Of a stretch of 56,977 bases of DNA, positions 6,222 through 51,507 are shown piece by piece. The notes below the pieces were generated by a model that was given only the letters and a program-made list of their open reading frames with translations, was not told the origin of the DNA and made no database searches. Within the stretch, counting starts at the first letter, position 1. The number at the start of each line of letters is the position of its first letter. The stretch lies in the IMG/VR virus record IMGVR_UViG_3300027906_004537, positions 1 to 56,977 of that record, one strand, 5' to 3'. A program made the position numbers and the translations under genes. The stretch comes from a virus.

Positions 6222-9200
6222 TTACAAAGTCCTCGCCTCTCTGAACCGGCTGGCCACCACTCTTGATTGCTCTGCGCCTTGGTTGACTCGCGCCTGACGA
6301 ACAGCCCTGCTTTGCGCCTGCGGAGTAATGGTCATGGCAGGTGGCGACCCGCGCAGCAATGCAAAGGCGTTCTTGCGAGATACACCGCCCAGTGTCAATG
6401 TCTGCAACAGTTCACGCCGCGTCATGCCGGCGTTTTCTGCCGCGCTCACTAGCTTTGCCATATCGTTGAAGGCTTTGGCGTACTGGCGGTCAGCGCCCTC
6501 CTTCGCCTTACGGATATCATCACTGCTCACATTATTTGCGCTGCGCAACACTCGCGACAATGACCCGCGTGCGTCGGTGAGCGCCTCATTGAAGTCGAAG
6601 CTGCGGTAATAGAGTCCGGTTCGGGCGTCGAGAGTAGATGCGCGCCACCCCAGCAGCGCTGACACTTCGTCTCTCACGCTGTATGGCTGGCCGGTCGATT
6701 CTCGCCTCTGCCCTCTGGCGGCTTGCACAAAACGCTCTGCGTTGCTTACAAATCCGGGCTGAATGGTCTTGCGAATGTGATTAGTGATGTCGGCCAGCTG
6801 GTCTAGCGGTTCGCCATTCTCTTTGTAAACCTGTCCGCCAGAAGACTTCTTGTTCGACATCACCTCAAAAATAGACTGAGCAGTAATGTCGCCACCTAGG
6901 AACGGCGTCAGCAAATCCGCCACGCCGCTCTTTGCAGAATCCTCCCAAGACTGGTTGCGCATCATCGCGGTAACAGGGCGTTTCCAAAATCCGTAGGGAT
7001 CAAGAAAGCTCAGGTCAACATAACGCAACTTCCCGTCAGGGTCGCGCCCCAGGTACATAAAGGTAGAGTTGTCCTGCCAAGGTGGTCCAAGGTCACGAAT
7101 GGCCTCCTCTTCATCATCATCCACGCCCAAGGCCGCCGCCGTCATGGCTGACAATGCGTAGAAACCGGCAGACACCATGGCCATGCCAGCTGCGCGCTTG
7201 CGCCCCAAAGCCCGTATTTTTGGGTTTTCGCTCTTCAAGTCAGAAGCTGTGGTTCGCATCATATTAGCGCTGGTGCGCACAATCTCTGACGGGAAGCTTA
7301 CAAAGGTACCCGCCAGCGGGAAGCGTGATAACCACCGCATGCCTCGGCCCACCATTGAATACGTGGGGTAGGTGTTGCGGATACGCTCAGCGGCCATTTT
7401 CTCTGCATCGGCTTCAGCAATGCCCGCATCTATCAGGCTAGCCTTCTCGTTCTCAAAACCAATAATCTTCCAGAAGTCATCACCAAAGGTATAGAAGCCT
7501 TGGGCAGCCTGGTTCGCTTTGCGAAAGATATCCATGGCCTTGCCCTTCTTACCCGACAACAGCTCATCCATGCGAGCATCTTCTAGCAAACGCATCATTT
7601 CACCCGCATAAGGGCTGTCGTAGACCACGCCAAGCTGCTTCAGCTTTCGCAGATACGCCAAGTCCTGCCCAGTCGCGCTCTGCGATACCTGTTCGCGAAA
7701 GGCGGCCATACTCTTGCGCATGTGCTTCATATTGAAATGGCCGTTCGCCAAGCTGAAGAACATAGCCGACTGCCAGTTACGCATCGCTGTGGTCGGACTA
7801 AGAACCGTTTTGCCGTACTTAACCAGCCCGTTTGCTCTAACGACGGTCCGGTATAAGTCGCCCATTTGCTGCTTGCCAAGTGCATCTTTGAATGACTGCG
7901 CCACTTCCGGAAATGTCCAAAGCCCGTTAAGTGGTGAATAGGTATCAGACTGCTCGCCAGCGATCTGGGTTGTGGCATCAGCCGGCCGGTTCTTGCCCTC
8001 AAACAGAAAGCTGCCCATACCCACTTCACGCACGCGATCGAGAAATCGCTGGTTCCAAATCAACCGTCCCATCTTTGTGGCGGACTTGGCAAAGTTCACA
8101 CGTGGGTCAGCGTACTCGCCCAGCAGTGCACGGATCTGCGGCGCCACATCCTTGCGCTTCATCATTACACTTAGGTCTTTGGCGCCCAGCTTGCCCTCGG
8201 CAATGAAGCTCTCCATCGAATCGTAGGCGGTGCCGCTCTTCAGAATCTCATTGATTGCCACATCAGCTAGGCGCGCTGCCTCTGCGCTACTCTCCCCGCT
8301 CCGTCGGTAACCTGCAGCCAGATAGTTTCGCGCACTATTCAGCACCGGCACCGGCACCTGTTTGAACCACTTCGGGTCGTCATATGCCTGGTAGGAGCGG
8401 TGCACGTACCTGCCCAGGTTGCCAGTGATCTTGTCGATCAAGCCCTGGTCGGCGCCCTTCAGGCGGTCAGCCGTTTGTTGCTTGAGGATGCTGATATATT
8501 CAGACGACAGGGAATCGATGTATTGCCGCATGGCCACGATGCCGGCCCTGGTGTTGGTCGGCAGTGAATCGTCCACCTTGCCAGCCAGCGCCTCACTCAG
8601 GCTGCGCATTTGTTCCTCAGTCAGCTTGTTCGCGGCCAGACCATAGTCGCCCTGCACAGCCTTTTCCAGCGCGCCCACCATGTGCCGCACGTCGAATTCA
8701 ACGGCCTCAAACTCGCTGTCGCGCTTGATCTTCTCTGAGAAAACATCGCCCGGCAGCAGGCCACCAGGCGCAAACTGCCTGGCGAATATCTTCTTGGCTT
8801 TATCCCAGATCGGCCGATCCTCTTCGCGCAGGCGGCGATTCTCCGCAGCAAAGGGGTCGGTGGGGTCCAGCTTGGCGCGGCCAAGAGCCCGATCAAGCGC
8901 TTCGCGCGCCTGTGCAGCACCTTGAGCAGTTGATGCCATACGGAAGGCCGGCAGGTCGGCGTCTTCGGCACGCACGTCAGTCGTCAGGTTGCGAGCCCGG
9001 GCACGGCGCCCTTTGGCGAAGGCGTCGGCGATATATTCAACAGCTTTGATCAGCTCGGCAGGCCCATCGGTATGCTTGATCAGCCCCACCCTGACGGCCA
9101 GGCGCTTCAGCGCGCGCAGTATCCGGTTCCAGCCCTTCGTGGCCCAGTTGATCTTGCGCTGCGCCAGGGTGCCAAGCATCTCTTCTGCATAGAGGCGGTC

Positions 9201-12125
9201 AGCTTGGGCCGGGGTCAGCTTGGCCGTTTTTGCAATGTCGCGGTACTCGGCAACAGTCTGATCCCATAGCTTTTTAATTGCCGGGTTTTCGGTGGATGCC
9301 TTTTTGATCTGCGCATACAGCTGTCGGCGCGCTACCGGCGAAAGAAGCCCAAGACCCTTGTGAACCAGGATCTCTTCTCGGAGCGTTTCCTCGATATTCT
9401 GCCGCGCACTTTTGCCATTTCGTGCACCAAGGCTTGCTCCCACAAGATGGACTGTTCCAGTTCGGAAGTCGTATTCACCTTGGATGGATGCTCCGGAATC
9501 TCTATCTGCGCGGTATCCGGGGAGGGTTTCAGCGCTATCGTGGATTTCAACTCGGACATCATCGGCGCCTTTATAGCGTTTAAGGAATGCGTCAACGGTA
9601 GCCTGCACTTTCTTCCTGGGCAAGGTGCTTGCGGCCTTCTTGCCTTTGCGGCTGAATGCTGGCACCTCGGCCTGCAGCTGCTCCCATGCCTGGCGGTTCA
9701 CCGACTCGGGTGATTCGGAATTGAGCTTGTTGTACTGCTCAAACGGCAGCTTGGCCGAGGCCGCGTCCAGCTCGGCATCGTACTCCTGCTGTAACCTTGC
9801 CATGGCGTCAGCGTAGCCAGGCGACCCTTTCTTGATGCCCGCCTTCTTTGCCATGGCAGCAAGGTAGGCTTTGCGGGGCTTGGTGAGGATTGCGGGGGCC
9901 TGTTTCACGCCTGCTGCAAACGTCGCCGGCGCTGCGACAGGTGTAGCAGCTGGTATCTTGGGGCGGCGTACCTTTTTTTCAGCGGTCCTCGCTTTAGCTT
10001 GTGCTGGAGATCTGGCCTCAGGCGCCTGTTCGCCCGCCTCGGCCTGAGCGCTTGGGAACTCTTTTACTGCCGGTAACAGTTCGCTAATCGGCGCTCCCAG
10101 CTGAATGATATTGACCGACTCGCCCGCCTCCAGCTTAGCCAACCATTGATGGTGCCCATCCAATACGTACCCGTCGCTCGATACCAATATTGACCGGTCT
10201 CCACCAGTGTACTTCTGTGCCTTGGCCACCTTTGTGCGAGAGAACTCTGCCTGGGTTGGCTTCAGGTCCGCTGCCGGCACCTCCTTCGACTCATGGCTTA
10301 TCCCCTTCCCCTTGAGAAAGTTCACCATTGCACCGCGGTGCTCCGCTTTGATCTGAGGCATGTCAGAGCGCGGCACTTTCATCGTGCCCGACTCAGGAGA
10401 GAAGCGAGCCCAATCGCCGTCAATGTCTTCGCCTACGATGGACGGCGACTGAGCGGCGACCACACGTTGCAACCGCCACTCCCTGTTCGCAGTCTTCACC
10501 ACCTCATATGCATCAGGGTTTGGCAACGCGCGCTTAGCTCGGTTCGCGCCTGGTACCGTTTTATAGGAGGTGCCCAATGCTTGGTTTTCCTGAGCCGCTA
10601 GGCGCAAGGCGCGCGCAGCCTGTATGCGGGTCGCACCAGTAGCCTCGGCCAGCGCCACTGCATTCATACCGCCGTTCTCGCGAGCACGCTCCAACACCCG
10701 CTCGAACCGAGGGCGCTGGCGTGGCACGGCCTGGCGAGTCATACCATCCTCCGGCTCTATCGGCTCAGGCTCTGCTAGTGTCGCCACCCGCGCTGTGGTG
10801 GCACCGCCCTGCTTATCGACCACAAAGGCTTCAGGCCGCAAGTCTGGAATGCCTAGCGGCTCGGTTACCACTGCCGCTTCAGGGCTGGCCGGCTCGACCG
10901 GCAAGGCTTCTCGGCCTCGCGGGGTTGGTTGGTCCATGCCTCGGCCACCCGACAATCCTGCTGGTGCAGAAGCCGGCACACGGCCTTGCGGTTCCGCTCG
11001 CATCTCGCCGTCCACGTTCCGTACTGGGCCAATGTTCTGTGCATTGCCAGCACCATCTACATAAGTGACCGGTTCCGGCGGTGGCAATCGCAACACGGGT
11101 TCAGGCGCAGGCAACTGAGCGGCCGCCCGGGATAACACCCCACCTGCAGGGTCCGGTCGATCAACTGGGAATGGTGCCGGGTTTTGCTCCGAAGGTTGCG
11201 GCTGCACGCTACCGACCACGTTTGCGCCGGCACCCATCGCCATACCGGCTAGGGTCCCCATCACAGCAGCATCTTCAATGCCTTCCGACCAGTCGCGGTC
11301 GAGCGCTAGGTTCTGGATGATCTGCTCAGATACGGACTGCGGTAGCTCCTCCAGCAAACCTTCGGTGATGGCGCCCTCGATCACCTTGCGCGGGATACTC
11401 TTCGCCGGCATTGCGGCCAGCTCACCGGCTACTTCTCGCGGTGTCACGCCACCGGCCAGCATGGTATCAACGTCGCCAATACCCATCTTCTGCGCCAGCC
11501 TGCCACCGGCAAAACCAAACAACGCACCAGCAGCACCAGTGCCGATAGCAGCGCCAGCCTGCCCCGCGGTCAGCAGGCCATCATCCGTTTGCTGTCTGAT
11601 CTGCTCGGCCTGGGCGCCGGCCATAACGGTGCCTTCGCCGGCTGCGCCTGCCAGTGCGGCGCCAACCTTGGGTGCAGCACGCCGGATGCCCTGGGCGACC
11701 ACGCCACCGCCAAGCATGGAGGGGGCCGATTCGGTTACGACATTCGCGATCAGCGAGGGGTTGCTCAGTGCTACCCCCGCTTTGTCGATGACACCATCGG
11801 CCTCTTGGAACTCCTGCTGCTGGGCTTTGAACTGGTCTGTGTGCAGGTCACTGAGAATGCCCTTGGCTTCTGCCGGCCTGAAGCCTGCCTTTTCGGCCAA
11901 CTTACCCGCGGCGCCAAAGGTGGGAATGTTCGCCAGGCCCACGGCCGCCTCTGGTATTGCGATGGCGCCTTTCAGCAGAGATAGGCCTGTGTCGCGCAGG
12001 TGGCCAGTGAGGCCTTTTTCCGTGGTCACCGGCTTGACGTCATCAAGGCCGCCGGTAAACGGCTTCACGCGCCGTGGCGCTTCAGCGGCCTCATCTAGCT
12101 CGCCATCGAAAGGTTTGAGAGCCAT
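6222..12125 (-). CDS. Giant polyvalent virion/ejection protein (LPD-type)
   Basis: A 1967-residue protein, the largest in the window. Residues about 40-320 hold Gly/Ala-rich hydrophobic stretches suited to membrane insertion; 320-560 are Pro/Ala-rich linker. Around 600-690 is a ParB/sulfiredoxin-like module (LVSSDGYVLDGHHQWLAKL). Near 915, TLREEILVHKGLG looks like a degenerate zincin motif of polyvalent proteins. Around 1480-1760 is a region like LPD38 (DDFWKIIGFENEKASLIDAG to DPYGFWKRPV). Such proteins are packaged and injected with the DNA, forming a channel in short-tailed phages and carrying enzymes into the cell. The ATG at 12125 has GGGGTG upstream. In P22 the ejection gene 16 has the same place beside immI. 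Confidence 0.75.
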   Translation of the reverse strand: MALKPFDGELDEAAEAPRRVKPFTGGLDDVKPVTTEKGLTGHLRDTGLSLLKGAIAIPEAAVGLANIPTFGAAGKLAEKAGFRPAEAKGILSDLHTDQFKAQQQEFQEADGVIDKAGVALSNPSLIANVVTESAPSMLGGGVVAQGIRRAAPKVGAALAGAAGEGTVMAGAQAEQIRQQTDDGLLTAGQAGAAIGTGAAGALFGFAGGRLAQKMGIGDVDTMLAGGVTPREVAGELAAMPAKSIPRKVIEGAITEGLLEELPQSVSEQIIQNLALDRDWSEGIEDAAVMGTLAGMAMGAGANVVGSVQPQPSEQNPAPFPVDRPDPAGGVLSRAAAQLPAPEPVLRLPPPEPVTYVDGAGNAQNIGPVRNVDGEMRAEPQGRVPASAPAGLSGGRGMDQPTPRGREALPVEPASPEAAVVTEPLGIPDLRPEAFVVDKQGGATTARVATLAEPEPIEPEDGMTRQAVPRQRPRFERVLERARENGGMNAVALAEATGATRIQAARALRLAAQENQALGTSYKTVPGANRAKRALPNPDAYEVVKTANREWRLQRVVAAQSPSIVGEDIDGDWARFSPESGTMKVPRSDMPQIKAEHRGAMVNFLKGKGISHESKEVPAADLKPTQAEFSRTKVAKAQKYTGGDRSILVSSDGYVLDGHHQWLAKLEAGESVNIIQLGAPISELLPAVKEFPSAQAEAGEQAPEARSPAQAKARTAEKKVRRPKIPAATPVAAPATFAAGVKQAPAILTKPRKAYLAAMAKKAGIKKGSPGYADAMARLQQEYDAELDAASAKLPFEQYNKLNSESPESVNRQAWEQLQAEVPAFSRKGKKAASTLPRKKVQATVDAFLKRYKGADDVRVEIHDSAETLPGYRADRDSGASIQGEYDFRTGTVHLVGASLGARNGKSARQNIEETLREEILVHKGLGLLSPVARRQLYAQIKKASTENPAIKKLWDQTVAEYRDIAKTAKLTPAQADRLYAEEMLGTLAQRKINWATKGWNRILRALKRLAVRVGLIKHTDGPAELIKAVEYIADAFAKGRRARARNLTTDVRAEDADLPAFRMASTAQGAAQAREALDRALGRAKLDPTDPFAAENRRLREEDRPIWDKAKKIFARQFAPGGLLPGDVFSEKIKRDSEFEAVEFDVRHMVGALEKAVQGDYGLAANKLTEEQMRSLSEALAGKVDDSLPTNTRAGIVAMRQYIDSLSSEYISILKQQTADRLKGADQGLIDKITGNLGRYVHRSYQAYDDPKWFKQVPVPVLNSARNYLAAGYRRSGESSAEAARLADVAINEILKSGTAYDSMESFIAEGKLGAKDLSVMMKRKDVAPQIRALLGEYADPRVNFAKSATKMGRLIWNQRFLDRVREVGMGSFLFEGKNRPADATTQIAGEQSDTYSPLNGLWTFPEVAQSFKDALGKQQMGDLYRTVVRANGLVKYGKTVLSPTTAMRNWQSAMFFSLANGHFNMKHMRKSMAAFREQVSQSATGQDLAYLRKLKQLGVVYDSPYAGEMMRLLEDARMDELLSGKKGKAMDIFRKANQAAQGFYTFGDDFWKIIGFENEKASLIDAGIAEADAEKMAAERIRNTYPTYSMVGRGMRWLSRFPLAGTFVSFPSEIVRTSANMMRTTASDLKSENPKIRALGRKRAAGMAMVSAGFYALSAMTAAALGVDDDEEEAIRDLGPPWQDNSTFMYLGRDPDGKLRYVDLSFLDPYGFWKRPVTAMMRNQSWEDSAKSGVADLLTPFLGGDITAQSIFEVMSNKKSSGGQVYKENGEPLDQLADITNHIRKTIQPGFVSNAERFVQAARGQRRESTGQPYSVRDEVSALLGWRASTLDARTGLYYRSFDFNEALTDARGSLSRVLRSANNVSSDDIRKAKEGADRQYAKAFNDMAKLVSAAENAGMTRRELLQTLTLGGVSRKNAFALLRGSPPAMTITPQAQSRAVRQARVNQGAEQSRVVASRFREARTL

Positions 12126-12157
12126 CACACACCCCAGAGATTGGAAATTCCCTCAAA

Positions 12158-46331: not shown

Positions 46332-47144
46332 ATGCAACCCGGATACTACCGAGACCTCAGCAATGAGGATTATCACGGCGGCGAAGGCGTGTCTAAAAGC
46401 CAGCTTGACCTGCTTCACAAGTCGCCAGCCCTGCTCCCCTGGTCGCGCAATGCGCCGGAGGATGAAGAGAAAAAGACGGCGCTGAATGTCGGTGATGCCG
46501 TTCACGCCATCCTGCTGGAGCCGCACCGGTTTGACGCTGAATACGCAGTAGGCCCCAAGGACGCACCGCGTAACACCAAGGCTGGAAAAGAGGCTTGGGC
46601 GGCGTTTGAGGAAGGGCTGAACGGCCGCACGGTTCTGACCCATGAAGAGCACCGCAAGATTCAGCTGATGCGCGAAAGCGTCATGGCCCACCCGCACGCG
46701 CGCTGGCTGATCGAGGCCGAAGGCGACGCAGAGGCAAGCATTTACTGGCGCGAGCAGGAAACCGGCGAGCTGGCCCGCTGCCGGCCCGACAAGAACATCA
46801 ACGCCCACGGCTGGGTGATGGACTTGAAGACCACGGCGGATATGTCGCGCTTTGCCAAATCGGTCTACGAGTACCGCTACCACGTGCAGGACGCCATGTA
46901 TTCCGATGGCTATGCCGCGCACTACGGCGAGCCTCCAGCCGGGTTTGTGTTCCTCGTGGTCAGCACCAGCATCGAATGCGCCCGCTACCCGGTACGGCTG
47001 TTCACCCTGGACGCCGAAGCAAAGCAGATCGGGCGCGCCGAATATCAGGCCGATATGGCCACCTTCCACGAATGCAAGGCCGCCAACGAATGGCCTGGCA
47101 TCGAAACCCTCAGCCTGCCCGGATGGGCAAGGAAGCAATCATGA
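46332..47144 (+). CDS. RecE-like exonuclease (PD-(D/E)XK)
   Basis: A 270-residue protein. YYRDLSNEDYHGGEGVSKSQLDLLHKSP, then NVGDAVHAILLEPHRF, and the active-site part (CRPDKNINAHGWVMDLKTTADMSRFAKSV, with D and DLK) match the RecE/exonuclease VIII nuclease domain. It digests one strand from double-strand ends to make 3' tails for RecT. AGGACAAG lies before the ATG. It overlaps the RecT gene. Confidence 0.88.
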   Translation: MQPGYYRDLSNEDYHGGEGVSKSQLDLLHKSPALLPWSRNAPEDEEKKTALNVGDAVHAILLEPHRFDAEYAVGPKDAPRNTKAGKEAWAAFEEGLNGRTVLTHEEHRKIQLMRESVMAHPHARWLIEAEGDAEASIYWREQETGELARCRPDKNINAHGWVMDLKTTADMSRFAKSVYEYRYHVQDAMYSDGYAAHYGEPPAGFVFLVVSTSIECARYPVRLFTLDAEAKQIGRAEYQADMATFHECKAANEWPGIETLSLPGWARKQS

Positions 47145-47980
47145 CCAATACCGCAGAGAAACAGCCCTTCACTCAATCCGACATGGAAAAAACGCAGCAG
47201 GTTAAGCCGAAAAGCCCTGCCGCCGAGCTTTCACACCTGCTGGCCAGCCCGGCGATGAAGGCGCAGATCAGCGCGGCCCTGCCGAAGCACATGACCGCCG
47301 AGCGCATGGCCCGCATCGTGACTACCGAGGTACGCAAGAACCCGGCCCTGATGAAGTGCGAGCGCACCAGCTTTCTCGGCGCGGTAATCCAGTGCGCACA
47401 GCTCGGACTAGAGCCTGGCAACAGCCTCGGTCACGCCTACATCCTGCCGTTCGATAAGCGTGAGAAGGTCAATGGTAGCTGGGTGACCGTGCGCACCGAC
47501 GCTCAATTGATCATTGGCTATCGCGGCATGATCGACCTTGCCCGCCGCTCTGGTCAAATCATCAGCATATCGGCCCGCACGGTGCGCGATGGCGACCACT
47601 TTGAATACCGTTATGGCTTGGACGAGAACATCGAGCACACGCCATCTGACGACCTTGAGGGTGGTGCTATCACCCATGTGTATGCGGTTGCCCGGCTGCG
47701 CGACGGCGGCGTCCAGTTCGAGGTTATGAGTCACGCCAAGATTGAAGCAGTACGCCAACAGAGCAAGGCCAAAGATAGCGGCCCCTGGAAGGATCATTGG
47801 GAAGAAATGGCGAAGAAGACCGTTATCCGCCGCCTCTTCAAATACCTGCCGGTCTCGGTCGAGATACAGCGCGCCGTGGTCCTGGATGAAGCGGCTGATG
47901 CCGGTATTGCTCAGGGTAACGAGTACACGCTGGATGGCGACTTTGAGGTCATCGACGGCGGCGAACAGGCAGAGGCCTAA
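47141..47980 (+). CDS. recT: RecT single-strand annealing protein
   Basis: A 279-residue protein with the RecT signature: RTSFLGAVIQCAQLGLEPGNSLGHAYILPF, QLIIGYRGMIDLARRSGQI and WKDHWEEMAKKTVIRRLFKYLPVS. It binds 3' single-stranded tails and pairs them with complementary DNA. The ATG at 47141 overlaps the exonuclease stop. The pair forms the phage's own recombination system. Confidence 0.92.
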   Translation: MTNTAEKQPFTQSDMEKTQQVKPKSPAAELSHLLASPAMKAQISAALPKHMTAERMARIVTTEVRKNPALMKCERTSFLGAVIQCAQLGLEPGNSLGHAYILPFDKREKVNGSWVTVRTDAQLIIGYRGMIDLARRSGQIISISARTVRDGDHFEYRYGLDENIEHTPSDDLEGGAITHVYAVARLRDGGVQFEVMSHAKIEAVRQQSKAKDSGPWKDHWEEMAKKTVIRRLFKYLPVSVEIQRAVVLDEAADAGIAQGNEYTLDGDFEVIDGGEQAEA

Positions 47981-48227: not shown

Positions 48228-48647
48228 ATGCTACAGCAAACAATCCCAGCAACACGGGCGGCAGAGGCTGCCCAAATATCGGCGAGTGTTGAGCAGTTTT
48301 TGGCGGCAGGTGGCGAGATTCAGCGCCTACCGATCTTCAAGCGCGACGGATCAGCCGGGCAGACGTGGACGCGAACAGCAAAGAACCCTGAAGCGGTAGA
48401 GACGAACACGCTGAAGCACATCGCTGACAAGCACTGCAAAAAGCACCCGGGCGGCGATACCGCAATGGCGGTCAAGAAAAACTCAGAGTATCGCCGGGCG
48501 GAACGTGACGCGCTTGCGCCCCAGGTAAAGGCAATGAGCGCCAATGGCGTGACCGTCAAGGACATTGCCAAGGCCCTGGGTATCAGTGTCGGCACCGTGA
48601 CCCGCATCCGTGTTGAAAACGGCTGTGAGCGTCAGCGCCGAGAATAA
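48228..48647 (+). CDS. HTH protein (resolvase-type C-terminal HTH)
   Basis: A 139-residue protein. The C-terminus (GVTVKDIAKALGISVGTVTRIRVENG) is a helix-turn-helix like that at the end of serine resolvases. The N-terminal part (QFLAAGGEIQRLPIF) is a common phage segment. A DNA-binding regulator of early genes is likely, target unknown. Confidence 0.7.
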   Translation: MLQQTIPATRAAEAAQISASVEQFLAAGGEIQRLPIFKRDGSAGQTWTRTAKNPEAVETNTLKHIADKHCKKHPGGDTAMAVKKNSEYRRAERDALAPQVKAMSANGVTVKDIAKALGISVGTVTRIRVENGCERQRRE

Positions 48648-48672
48648 CCCCTTCAGGCCGCTGGCCAGAGGT

Positions 48673-50352
48673 ATGCCCATGAATGCAGTTACCCATGTCG
48701 GCGAGCTTGTCGACGACGTGGCGCAGTTCTTTGCGCCTGTTTCATCCGATCTCGTGGATAGCCTGGTAGGCGAGTACCGCGGCATGCGCGAGCGCATTGA
48801 AGCCCTGGCTGCAGCGGTTGAGCAGGAAGAGCACGCCGGCGCGCTGACTCACTTCATCAACGGCAACCTGCGCGACGACCGCAACGCAATCCCTCATCAC
48901 ATCGGCAACCTGTTCGATCTGCGCGGCGCTATCGGACACTTGAACGGCATGTACTGGAACAAAGCGCTGCACATGACCGATGTGCTGGACTACATGCCGC
49001 AGGCCAGGCGCTCAGAATGGAACGAACAGATCCGCAACCCGCTGGGCACCAAGGCCAACTCGCGCACCGGTGAAAAAGAGCAGCCAGCCCTGCCAGAGTT
49101 CGAGGAAGAGTCGGTGCGATCGACGCTGTCGCACTTGCTGCACAGCCGGTCGCAGTTCTTCGCCGAGCGAATCGACGGCATCTTTCGCTCGCTGAGCAAA
49201 ACGCACGTCACCAACTGCCCGGAAGGGTTCAACAAGCGGATGATTCTGGGCCGAGCGATCACCCATTACGACACGGTTGATCACGACACAGCAGGCGTCA
49301 TCAATGATCTGCGCTGCGTTATCGCCAAGTTCATGGGCCGGGATGAGCCGAAATACCATGTGACTGGTGACACGATCAGCCGCTGCCGGTACCCGAATGG
49401 CCAATGGCAAAGCATCGACGGCGGCTCACTTCGCATGCGGATCTACAACGGCGTGGGCACGGCCCACCTTGAGGTTCATCCTGACATAGCCTGGCGGCTG
49501 AATGGCGTGCTGGCGAGCATCTACCCGGCGGCGATACCCGAGAAGAACCGCACCAGGCCAAAGCGTCAGCGCAAGATCAAGGATTTTGAGCTGATGGAGC
49601 GGCCCCTGCCCTTCTCTGTGATTGGTCTGCTGTCCGGAATGCGCCCGGTAAATATACCCAGGCAGAACGACAGCTTCCGCAACGGACGCGATCGCATCCC
49701 AATGGCCCTGCAGTTTGAGTACGGAGATCACGAAAAGCATTCACTTGCCGAGGCGGAGAAGGTGCTGGAAGCCATTGGCGGTGTACGCGCTACCGAGGCG
49801 CACGCAAGGTTCTGGCAATTCGACTACGAGCCGCAAGAGGTCATCAGCCAGATTGTTGTCAGCGGCTGCATCCCGGATCAAAAGAGCCACCAGTTCTACC
49901 CAACGCCCAGCGATCTGGCGGAACAGGCTGTAGAGCTCGCAGCGATCGAGCCCCACCACGACTGCCTTGAGCCATCCGCCGGCACCGGCAGCATTGCCGA
50001 GTTAATGAGTGGTGGTCGCTCCCTGTGCTGCGTTGAAATCAGCCCGCTGCACTGCAAGGTGCTGGAAGCCAAAGGCATGAAGCCGCTGGCCAAGGACTTC
50101 ATCAAATGGAATGGCGCCACAGGCTTTGATCGCATCGTCATGAACCCCCCGTTCGACCAAGGCCGCTGGCAGGCCCACCTAGAGCGCGCGGCAACCATGC
50201 TTCGACCAGGCGGCCGACTGGTCGCCATTCTGCCGTCAGGCGCCAAGAACAAAAATCCGCTGCCAAGCATGCAATGTGAGTGGCACGGGCCTTATGACAA
50301 CCGCTTTGCAGGCGCATCAGTGTCCGTTGTGATTCTGGTGGCCACCGCATAA
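48673..50352 (+). CDS. DUF4942 protein with N6-adenine methyltransferase domain
   Basis: A 559-residue protein. Residues about 90-300 fit DUF4942 (NGNLRDDRNAIPHHIGNLFDLRGAIGHLN; MYWNKALHMTDVLDYMPQ). Residues about 410-559 are a methyltransferase: the SAM-binding LEPSAGTGSIAELM near 430 and catalytic IVMNPPFDQGRW near 485 (NPPF, the adenine-type motif). It likely methylates adenine in phage DNA against host restriction. AGAGGT lies before the ATG at 48673. Confidence 0.85.
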   Translation: MPMNAVTHVGELVDDVAQFFAPVSSDLVDSLVGEYRGMRERIEALAAAVEQEEHAGALTHFINGNLRDDRNAIPHHIGNLFDLRGAIGHLNGMYWNKALHMTDVLDYMPQARRSEWNEQIRNPLGTKANSRTGEKEQPALPEFEEESVRSTLSHLLHSRSQFFAERIDGIFRSLSKTHVTNCPEGFNKRMILGRAITHYDTVDHDTAGVINDLRCVIAKFMGRDEPKYHVTGDTISRCRYPNGQWQSIDGGSLRMRIYNGVGTAHLEVHPDIAWRLNGVLASIYPAAIPEKNRTRPKRQRKIKDFELMERPLPFSVIGLLSGMRPVNIPRQNDSFRNGRDRIPMALQFEYGDHEKHSLAEAEKVLEAIGGVRATEAHARFWQFDYEPQEVISQIVVSGCIPDQKSHQFYPTPSDLAEQAVELAAIEPHHDCLEPSAGTGSIAELMSGGRSLCCVEISPLHCKVLEAKGMKPLAKDFIKWNGATGFDRIVMNPPFDQGRWQAHLERAATMLRPGGRLVAILPSGAKNKNPLPSMQCEWHGPYDNRFAGASVSVVILVATA

Positions 50353-50367
50353 CCGAGGTAATCCCCC

Positions 50368-51507
50368 ATGGCGGCTTATTACAACGAGCACGATCCGTAT
50401 GCCGCCCAGTGGCTGCGCAACCTGATAAAAGCCGGTCACATAGCGCCGGGCGATGTCGATGAAAGGAGTATTGAAGATGTCACACCTGCAGACCTTGCCG
50501 GATACTCACAGTGTCATTTCTTCGCAGGCATTGGCGTCTGGTCACTCGCCCTACGTCGAGCGGGATGGCCAGATGACCTTCCTGTATGGACCGGCAGTTG
50601 TCCGTGCCAGCCTTTCAGCTCGGCAGGCGCTCAAGCTGGGTTTGATGACCCGCGCCACCTCTGGCCAAGTTTTGCCTGGCTCATCCAAGAGTGCCGCCCT
50701 GCAGTCGCCTTTGGAGAGCAGGTTGCAAGTAAAGCTGTCGAGCCTTGGATCGACCTTGTACAAACTGACGTGGAAGCAATGGGCTACGCCTTCGGGTGTG
50801 TGCCGTTTCCGTCTGCGGGCGTCGGTGCCCCGCACATCCGAGACCGTGCGTACTGGGTGGCAAACGCCCGTAGCACACGAAGCAAGGCTAGGCTATCAGC
50901 GGCGTCGCGGGGACACGAAAGGGAGTCAGGTTTCGTTGACAACCGAAGTAGTGAACTTTCTGGCCCCGGAGTCAGATCCGATGTTAAAGGGCTGGAATCT
51001 GTCTGCCTGGCCGACGCCGAACGCGACGAACAATGGCGCCGGGGAGGAGCCGGGGGCAAAAGCAGCGCGCGGAATGAACCCTGGGTTGAACCCGGCAGAC
51101 GCGGCGAGGCTTGCGGGCTGGCCCACAACCCGAGCGACCGACGGCACCAACAATGCTCGATCGCTGCAGGGAGCGGAGAACGAAGCGCTTCGGAAGAGCT
51201 GGAACAACGACCTTGGAGTGGCGAGCTTCTCGGTCGTGACGAACAACCCGGCCCGGTTAACGGCTTCTGGCGAACTTCTGACTGGCTGTTCTGCCGAGAT
51301 GCCAAGTGGCGGCCAGTTGAACCCGGCACATTCCCGCTGGTTGCAAGCCCTGCCGGTGGTGTGGGACGAGGCTGCACCGATTGGCATACCCCCGCCGGAC
51401 AAGAAGGCCAAGGCCACCGCGCCGGCCGGCTGAAAGGCTACGGCAACGCAATCAACGCAGAGGCCGCCACGGTCTTTATTGAATCGTTTATTGAGGTAAT
51501 CCCATGA
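50368..51507 (+). CDS. DNA (cytosine-5) methyltransferase
   Basis: A 379-residue enzyme. Motif I is FFAGIGVWSLAL near residue 53, motif IV with the catalytic cysteine is GSCPCQPFSSAG near 80, motif VI is FGEQVAS near 117, motif VIII is GAPHIRDRAYWVA near 155 and motif X is LKGYGNAINAEAATVFIES at the end. The middle (about 170-300) is a variable target-recognition region of low complexity. It transfers methyl groups to cytosine C5. A second coding frame fills this gene from 50477 to 51433. Confidence 0.9.
   Translation: MAAYYNEHDPYAAQWLRNLIKAGHIAPGDVDERSIEDVTPADLAGYSQCHFFAGIGVWSLALRRAGWPDDLPVWTGSCPCQPFSSAGAQAGFDDPRHLWPSFAWLIQECRPAVAFGEQVASKAVEPWIDLVQTDVEAMGYAFGCVPFPSAGVGAPHIRDRAYWVANARSTRSKARLSAASRGHERESGFVDNRSSELSGPGVRSDVKGLESVCLADAERDEQWRRGGAGGKSSARNEPWVEPGRRGEACGLAHNPSDRRHQQCSIAAGSGERSASEELEQRPWSGELLGRDEQPGPVNGFWRTSDWLFCRDAKWRPVEPGTFPLVASPAGGVGRGCTDWHTPAGQEGQGHRAGRLKGYGNAINAEAATVFIESFIEVIP
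50477..51433 (+). CDS. Overprinted protein inside the cytosine methyltransferase
   Basis: A 318-residue frame shifted by one base relative to the methyltransferase. Its ATG at 50477 has AAGGAG 10 bp upstream inside the methyltransferase gene. I recognise its pattern from phage proteins beside cytosine methyltransferases: STLYKLTWKQWATPSGVCRF, repeated GWQTP/WPTPNAT blocks, and SGGQLNPAHSRWLQALPVVWDE near the end. Thus both frames look real. The function is unknown; a specificity or anti-restriction partner of the methyltransferase is an inference. Confidence 0.7.
   Translation: MSHLQTLPDTHSVISSQALASGHSPYVERDGQMTFLYGPAVVRASLSARQALKLGLMTRATSGQVLPGSSKSAALQSPLESRLQVKLSSLGSTLYKLTWKQWATPSGVCRFRLRASVPRTSETVRTGWQTPVAHEARLGYQRRRGDTKGSQVSLTTEVVNFLAPESDPMLKGWNLSAWPTPNATNNGAGEEPGAKAARGMNPGLNPADAARLAGWPTTRATDGTNNARSLQGAENEALRKSWNNDLGVASFSVVTNNPARLTASGELLTGCSAEMPSGGQLNPAHSRWLQALPVVWDEAAPIGIPPPDKKAKATAPAG

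Follow-up and report, generated by a model that had tools for sequence, protein, structure and literature searches.

A reading frame nested within a phage C5-cytosine methyltransferase gene very probably encodes the second subunit of the same enzyme

Results

Layout of the two reading frames

The window analysed here is an entire IMG/VR virus record of 56,977 bases. On its plus strand, an outer open reading frame (ORF) of 379 codons (positions 50368-51507) encodes a cytosine-C5 methyltransferase chain of 379 amino acids, referred to below as alpha. A second ORF of 318 codons, referred to as beta, starts from the ATG at 50477, ends with a stop codon whose last base is at 51433, and encodes 318 amino acids. 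Beta is read in the +1 frame relative to alpha and lies wholly within it, with 957 bp shared. Two further in-frame ATG codons of the inner ORF occur upstream of 50477, at 50453 and 50459. A preliminary description, drawn from the sequence alone, had already reported a 318-residue gene within the methyltransferase gene, and both ORFs are indeed present at these positions. The features of the pair that are described below are likewise on the plus strand.

Alpha is a catalytic chain

Alpha matches PF00145 (E 2.7e-12) and phrog_363 (E 9.8e-85), and the catalytic motifs I, IV (PCQ), VI and VIII that go with PF00145 membership are present in the outer frame. Motif I (FFAGIGVW, 50518..50541) was assigned from the sequence; the other assignments draw on 73 homologues, among which P79, C80 and Q81 of motif IV (GSCPCQPFS, 50593..50619; C80 is the catalytic cysteine), E117 of motif VI (FGEQVA in place of ENV, 50710..50727), and R158 and R160 of motif VIII (HIRDRAYWV, 50833..50859) are invariant. 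Motif X (GYGNAI, 51436..51453), with G359 and N360 invariant, is located just past the beta stop codon and falls in a confidently folded segment. In the AlphaFold model, residues 1-170 and 357-379 of alpha are predicted with confidence and residues 171-356 are disordered; the folded part matches M.HhaI with a Z score of 15.7 over 170 residues (rmsd 2.5).

The preliminary description had located all of the C5-methyltransferase motifs in the outer frame, which does not hold, as the outer chain is devoid of motif IX and of a recognizable target-recognition domain, and both elements appear in the inner frame. The disordered stretch of alpha, residues 171-356, is where the inner frame has its putative recognition modules and motif IX.

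Beta carries a motif IX block and shuffled modules

Beta matches phrog_1008 (E 1.4e-30), so that its earlier assignment to a recurring phage family proved sound. In an alignment of 111 relatives, the invariant residues are G91 and W99, which belong to an N-terminal hairpin (GSTLYKLTWKQWATPSGVCRFRLRAS, 50747..50824; pLDDT 75-91), and L281, P283, W288 and W296, all of which fall in an 'LNPxxxxWLMGxPxxW' block. The spacing of this block agrees with that of C5-methyltransferase motif IX as in M.HhaI. The motif IX of the window (GGQLNPAHSRWLQALPVVW, 51308..51364) is off the consensus (LQALP versus LMGLP) and aligns to 'FPEWMMGWPAGWV' of a single-chain enzyme. In Paenibacillus phages, the nested frame also holds the block ('LNPDWVECLMGFPIGW'), and the outer residues over it are quite different; the block is thus conserved in its own right.

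Between the hairpin and motif IX are three modules of the W-x-T-P type, the ends of which are approximate. Module 1 (WQTP..., 50858..51007) and module 2 (WPTP..., 51008..51118) were delimited from the sequence and a module analysis, and module 3 (WPTTRATDG..., 51119..51241) from the module analysis, a similar module being found in other relatives. A census of 95 distinct proteins, made with a simple W-x-T-P pattern, showed that parsable inner proteins contain one to five modules with an internal length of ~34 residues. Similar modules fall into seventeen recurrent clusters, most of which occupy varying ordinal positions next to varying neighbours; the largest of these consists of the N-domain, which the pattern also picks up, and not of a module. 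By analogy with the tandem recognition domains of Bacillus phage C5-methyltransferases (PMC8936443), each W-x-T-P module may recognize one DNA target.

When modelled alone, beta gave a pLDDT of 62 and a pTM of 0.26, with confident prediction limited to the N-terminal hairpin, and it had no sequence match in the PDB; a target-recognition fold is therefore not seen directly. Such an outcome would not be surprising for half an enzyme, so that the beta side of the structural comparison lends no independent support. The best structural match of this model (Z 3.9) is not meaningful at the model's confidence and was set aside.

Single-chain relatives hold both parts in one frame

Actinophages possess single-chain relatives (Saroj gp68, Wachhund gp69, prophiGD91-2 gp27 and PFR1 gp45), in which catalytic motifs I-VIII, LPTPxAxD repeats, 'FxEWMMGxPxG' (motif IX) and 'GNGVVPQQA' or a close variant (motif X) follow one another in one frame. 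PF00145 covers their N-termini (the entire chain in PFR1 gp45), phrog_1008 matches their C-termini (E-values as low as 9e-73), and phrog_363 matches the same chain. Moreover, a profile comparison (hhalign) of the inner family with the single-chain C-terminal region gave a probability of 93.7 (E 1.9e-7). The W/LPTP repeats and the 'LNPxxxxWLMGxPxxW' block are on the same chain in actinophages, between motifs VIII and X, and for that reason we regard the outer and inner ORFs of the window as the alpha and beta parts of one methyltransferase. It is very probable that one C5-cytosine methyltransferase is encoded here as two polypeptides by one stretch of DNA; its assembly, activity, targets and anti-restriction role are what we infer from knowledge of the family. 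The inner ORF is a real gene, as the preliminary description had maintained in calling it overprinted, but in all likelihood it supplies the missing half of the methyltransferase and, judging from these alignments, is probably not an unrelated gene.

An unlikely alternative is that beta is a separate overprinted protein that acts outside the enzyme, e.g. in anti-restriction or regulation. This would suit a protein with no match in Pfam, NCBIfam or PADLOC and a poor model on its own. Against it, single-chain methyltransferases have the repeats and C-terminal block of beta in the interval from motif VIII to motif X, and alpha is without exactly the parts that beta has.

In other actinophages, the same enzyme is divided over staggered, partly overlapping gene pairs (Andrew gp43/gp44, Peaches gp77/gp76 and RemusLoopin gp34/gp35). 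In the window, nesting is complete, and motif X remained in the outer frame. In a few single-chain actinophage enzymes (L235 1501-1867, L236 821-1355 and L241 1145-1511), the motif VIII region of alpha is still overlain by an ORF in another frame that encodes the beta N-domain together with LPTP modules; the recognition repeats and motifs IX and X are nevertheless in the alpha frame.

A putative internal initiation site for beta

The sequence AAAGGAG (50462-50468), 8 nucleotides upstream of the ATG at 50477, is the putative Shine-Dalgarno sequence of beta and is embedded in alpha codons E32-R33-S34; an AAGGAG of its own in front of the inner ATG had been noted before, and it is there. R33 is invariant in alpha and is encoded by AGG in 30% of 111 non-redundant homologues, while AGG is used at twelve other conserved arginines in 0-15%, with nine of them below 6%. 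In the redundant set, the figures are 38% at R33 versus 7.5% overall. The excess of AGG suggests that, in part of the family, an internal ribosome site is under selection; only in roughly half of the homologues can an embedded Shine-Dalgarno sequence be clearly recognized.

An initiation site of this kind bears on whether the two frames are instead joined into one chain by programmed frameshifting, with no separate starts, which is very unlikely. Single-chain forms do exist, and in L013, L113, L217, L219, L231 and L319 an indel in the double-coding zone swaps the frames and creates alpha/beta chimeric ORFs, which may be looked upon as natural chimeras. Nonetheless, beta has an embedded Shine-Dalgarno sequence and start codon, two genes are annotated in, e.g., Paenibacillus phage Diva, and two shifts would be needed, because motif X is back in the alpha frame after the end of beta.

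The inner frame is open across the family

When synonymous codons were shuffled with the outer protein fixed, 5.4 stop codons were expected on average in the +1 frame, and every one of the 2,000 shuffles was closed by at least one stop; 19 stops occur in the third frame of the window. The same test at 57 loci gave a mean of 4.8 expected inner stops against none observed, and the third frame was again full of stops. Since this test used stop-to-stop ORF ends, which flatters the result, an unbiased sample of 80 viral loci was retrieved with the outer profile only. The inner profile was found at full length in the +1 frame at 79 of these, and the remaining locus has an indel that swaps the frames. 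In a second set of 225 sequences from viral contigs and bacterial genomes, mostly retrieved through the inner family, both frames were present in 224, in the +1 relation every time, and both proteins were full length in 214. The nested arrangement occurs in hundreds of phage and bacterial sequences.

Stop codons of the inner frame in close relatives had been named beforehand as an observation that would speak against the gene; disruptions were encountered at a few loci only, in the form of single frameshifts or one stop. At locus L117, a single stop falls in beta and alpha is complete, and at locus L206 beta is intact and alpha is interrupted; these may be natural one-subunit knock-outs or sequencing errors. 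Two plasmid matches were inspected for a restriction partner, and their surroundings were phage-like.

Constraint changes hands along the overlap

In a +1 overlap, position 1 of an outer codon is the wobble position of an inner codon. The distribution of substitutions over outer codon positions was examined in 77 disjoint homologue pairs with local identity filters; the filters and disjoint pairs were adopted because, without filters, the signal between motifs VIII and X was flat owing to misalignment of reshuffled modules. The shares at positions 1/2/3 were 0.18/0.14/0.68 before the overlap, 0.26/0.17/0.57 from the start of the overlap to motif VIII, 0.52/0.24/0.24 in the VIII-X zone, 0.34/0.21/0.45 at the IX/X end, and 0.26/0.15/0.59 past the inner stop codon. 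The bootstrap intervals of the pre-overlap zone and the VIII-X zone do not touch, and since the pairs are kin, P values overstate independence. Separately retrieved enzymes of the Paenibacillus type gave the same picture, with a share at outer position 1 of 0.22 before the zone and 0.59 within it.

Taken with the full-length inner frame at 79 of 80 loci, this shift shows that both frames are coding and that constraint passes from one to the other along the gene: over the catalytic motifs it is chiefly the outer frame that is constrained, and beyond them chiefly the inner one. Two further suggestions of the preliminary description are thereby borne out, namely that about 957 bp are coding twice and that the frames trade constraint, substitutions moving from the wobble position of the outer frame (68% ahead of the overlap) to that of the inner frame (52%) between motifs VIII and X. 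Upstream of motif VIII, the similarity of the inner frame was far above that of synonymous shuffles, and so was that of a control frame, which means that this test detects conserved synonymous sites but not the frame responsible. Long open shadow frames are common in high-G+C genes, many of them in this window, but it is extremely unlikely that the inner frame is such a non-coding by-product of outer composition and conservation, as the third frame is full of stops and the +1 frame has none, single-chain enzymes hold the same protein block in frame, and substitutions between motifs VIII and X track the inner wobble position, by which this possibility is refuted barring alignment error in both sets.

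Discussion

A two-polypeptide enzyme from one stretch of DNA

In the arrangement that we favour, one methyltransferase made of two subunits, the first frame would give rise to alpha, with the SAM-binding and catalytic motifs I-VIII, motif X, and a long disordered linker in between. An internal Shine-Dalgarno sequence and an ATG 36 codons into alpha would start beta in the +1 frame, and beta would begin with an N-terminal domain, followed by the target-recognition domain, made up of three W-x-T-P modules, and by motif IX. Together, alpha and beta would then form an active enzyme that methylates the DNA of the phage, most probably to shield it from restriction by the host. Because beta reads target recognition where alpha reads linker, each frame could dominate where the other is free to vary.

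Such a pair might have originated from a single-chain enzyme by two compensating frameshifts, one after motif VIII and the other before motif X. The recognition domain and motif IX would thereby have moved to the +1 frame, with motif X left in place and beta started inside alpha. The staggered and single-chain relatives and the frame-swapping indels fit an origin by frameshift, and would fit either direction of change.

Comparison with known systems

The small subunit of M.EcoHK31I is reportedly encoded in another frame inside the large one. According to PMC3404938 (citing Lee et al. 1995), M.EcoHK31I is a two-polypeptide C5-methyltransferase for YGGCCR that needs both subunits; the large one bears motifs I-VIII and X, and the small one bears motif IX. 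The window is similar in that a motif IX-like block is on the smaller chain and motif X (GYGNAI) on the larger. It differs in that the target-recognition domain of M.EcoHK31I is placed on the large subunit, whereas the recognition-like, shuffled modules are here on the small one, and in that the alpha linker of the window is predicted to be disordered. M.AquI, another two-polypeptide C5-methyltransferase (PMC3404938), likewise has motifs I-VIII on one chain and the rest of the recognition region with motif IX on the other; however, its beta chain also bears motif X and its alpha chain part of the recognition region, which brings it closer to the staggered actinophage pairs (Andrew and Peaches) than to the nested pair of the window. 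C5-methyltransferases of Bacillus phages contain tandem target-recognition domains and have several targets (PMC8936443). The present system may resemble them, with several recognition-like and putatively exchangeable units in the region from motif VIII to motif IX; those enzymes are single chains, whereas the putative recognition units of the window are in an overlapping frame.

Nested +1 pairs are already annotated in Paenibacillus phage Diva (gp49/gp50, 'g49 internal gene'), Escherichia phage K1ind2 (ORF29/ORF28) and Xanthomonas phage PhiXhv-28; the nesting is the same, both genes are called DNA methyltransferase, and the records give no mechanism. Thus, given these pairs and the plan of M.EcoHK31I, the principle has precedent and the pair itself is in the records. 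A literature search for a description of this overlap in phages found none, and we likewise found no account of the breadth of the overlap, the recognition modules in the inner frame, the switch in constraint or the modular shuffling.

It is unusual for double coding of ~1 kb to be kept over hundreds of loci in phages and bacteria, and the reason for it can be read in the anatomy of the pair, in which constraint on one frame coincides with linker in the other. We tentatively suggest, though with some doubt, that the nested W-x-T-P modules are exchangeable units with one DNA target each, that phages swap them over the unconstrained alpha linker to reprogramme specificity, and that the overlap is ancient and common to phages of Proteobacteria, Firmicutes and (in staggered form) Actinobacteria. 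The arrangement also has practical consequences. Many records annotate only one frame of the nested pair, giving a single subunit or labelling it hypothetical; in PMG1, the catalytic frame has no annotation and the inner frame bears the label 'DNA methyltransferase', and in Pseudomonas phage Riah neither frame is annotated on its strand. Recoding alpha for cloning would abolish beta, and specificity should be sought in the overlooked frame. The pair offers a natural split methyltransferase with modular, putative recognition units.

Other features of the window

Directly upstream of alpha, a second DNA methyltransferase gene (48610-50352) ends 16 nucleotides before the alpha start; it contains DUF4942 and a small methyltransferase domain and matches phrog_6263 (E 2.8e-200), so the phage seems to have two modification enzymes in tandem. 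The other neighbours are recombination genes, among which exonuclease VIII-like (46332-47144) and RecT-like (46976-47980) ORFs overlap by ~170 nucleotides as listed, the ORF starts being approximate. Portal, terminase and head proteins occupy the other half of the window. On the minus strand, a 1968-residue ORF (6222-12128), both ends of which match several very long phage families, is probably a multidomain virion or polyvalent protein.
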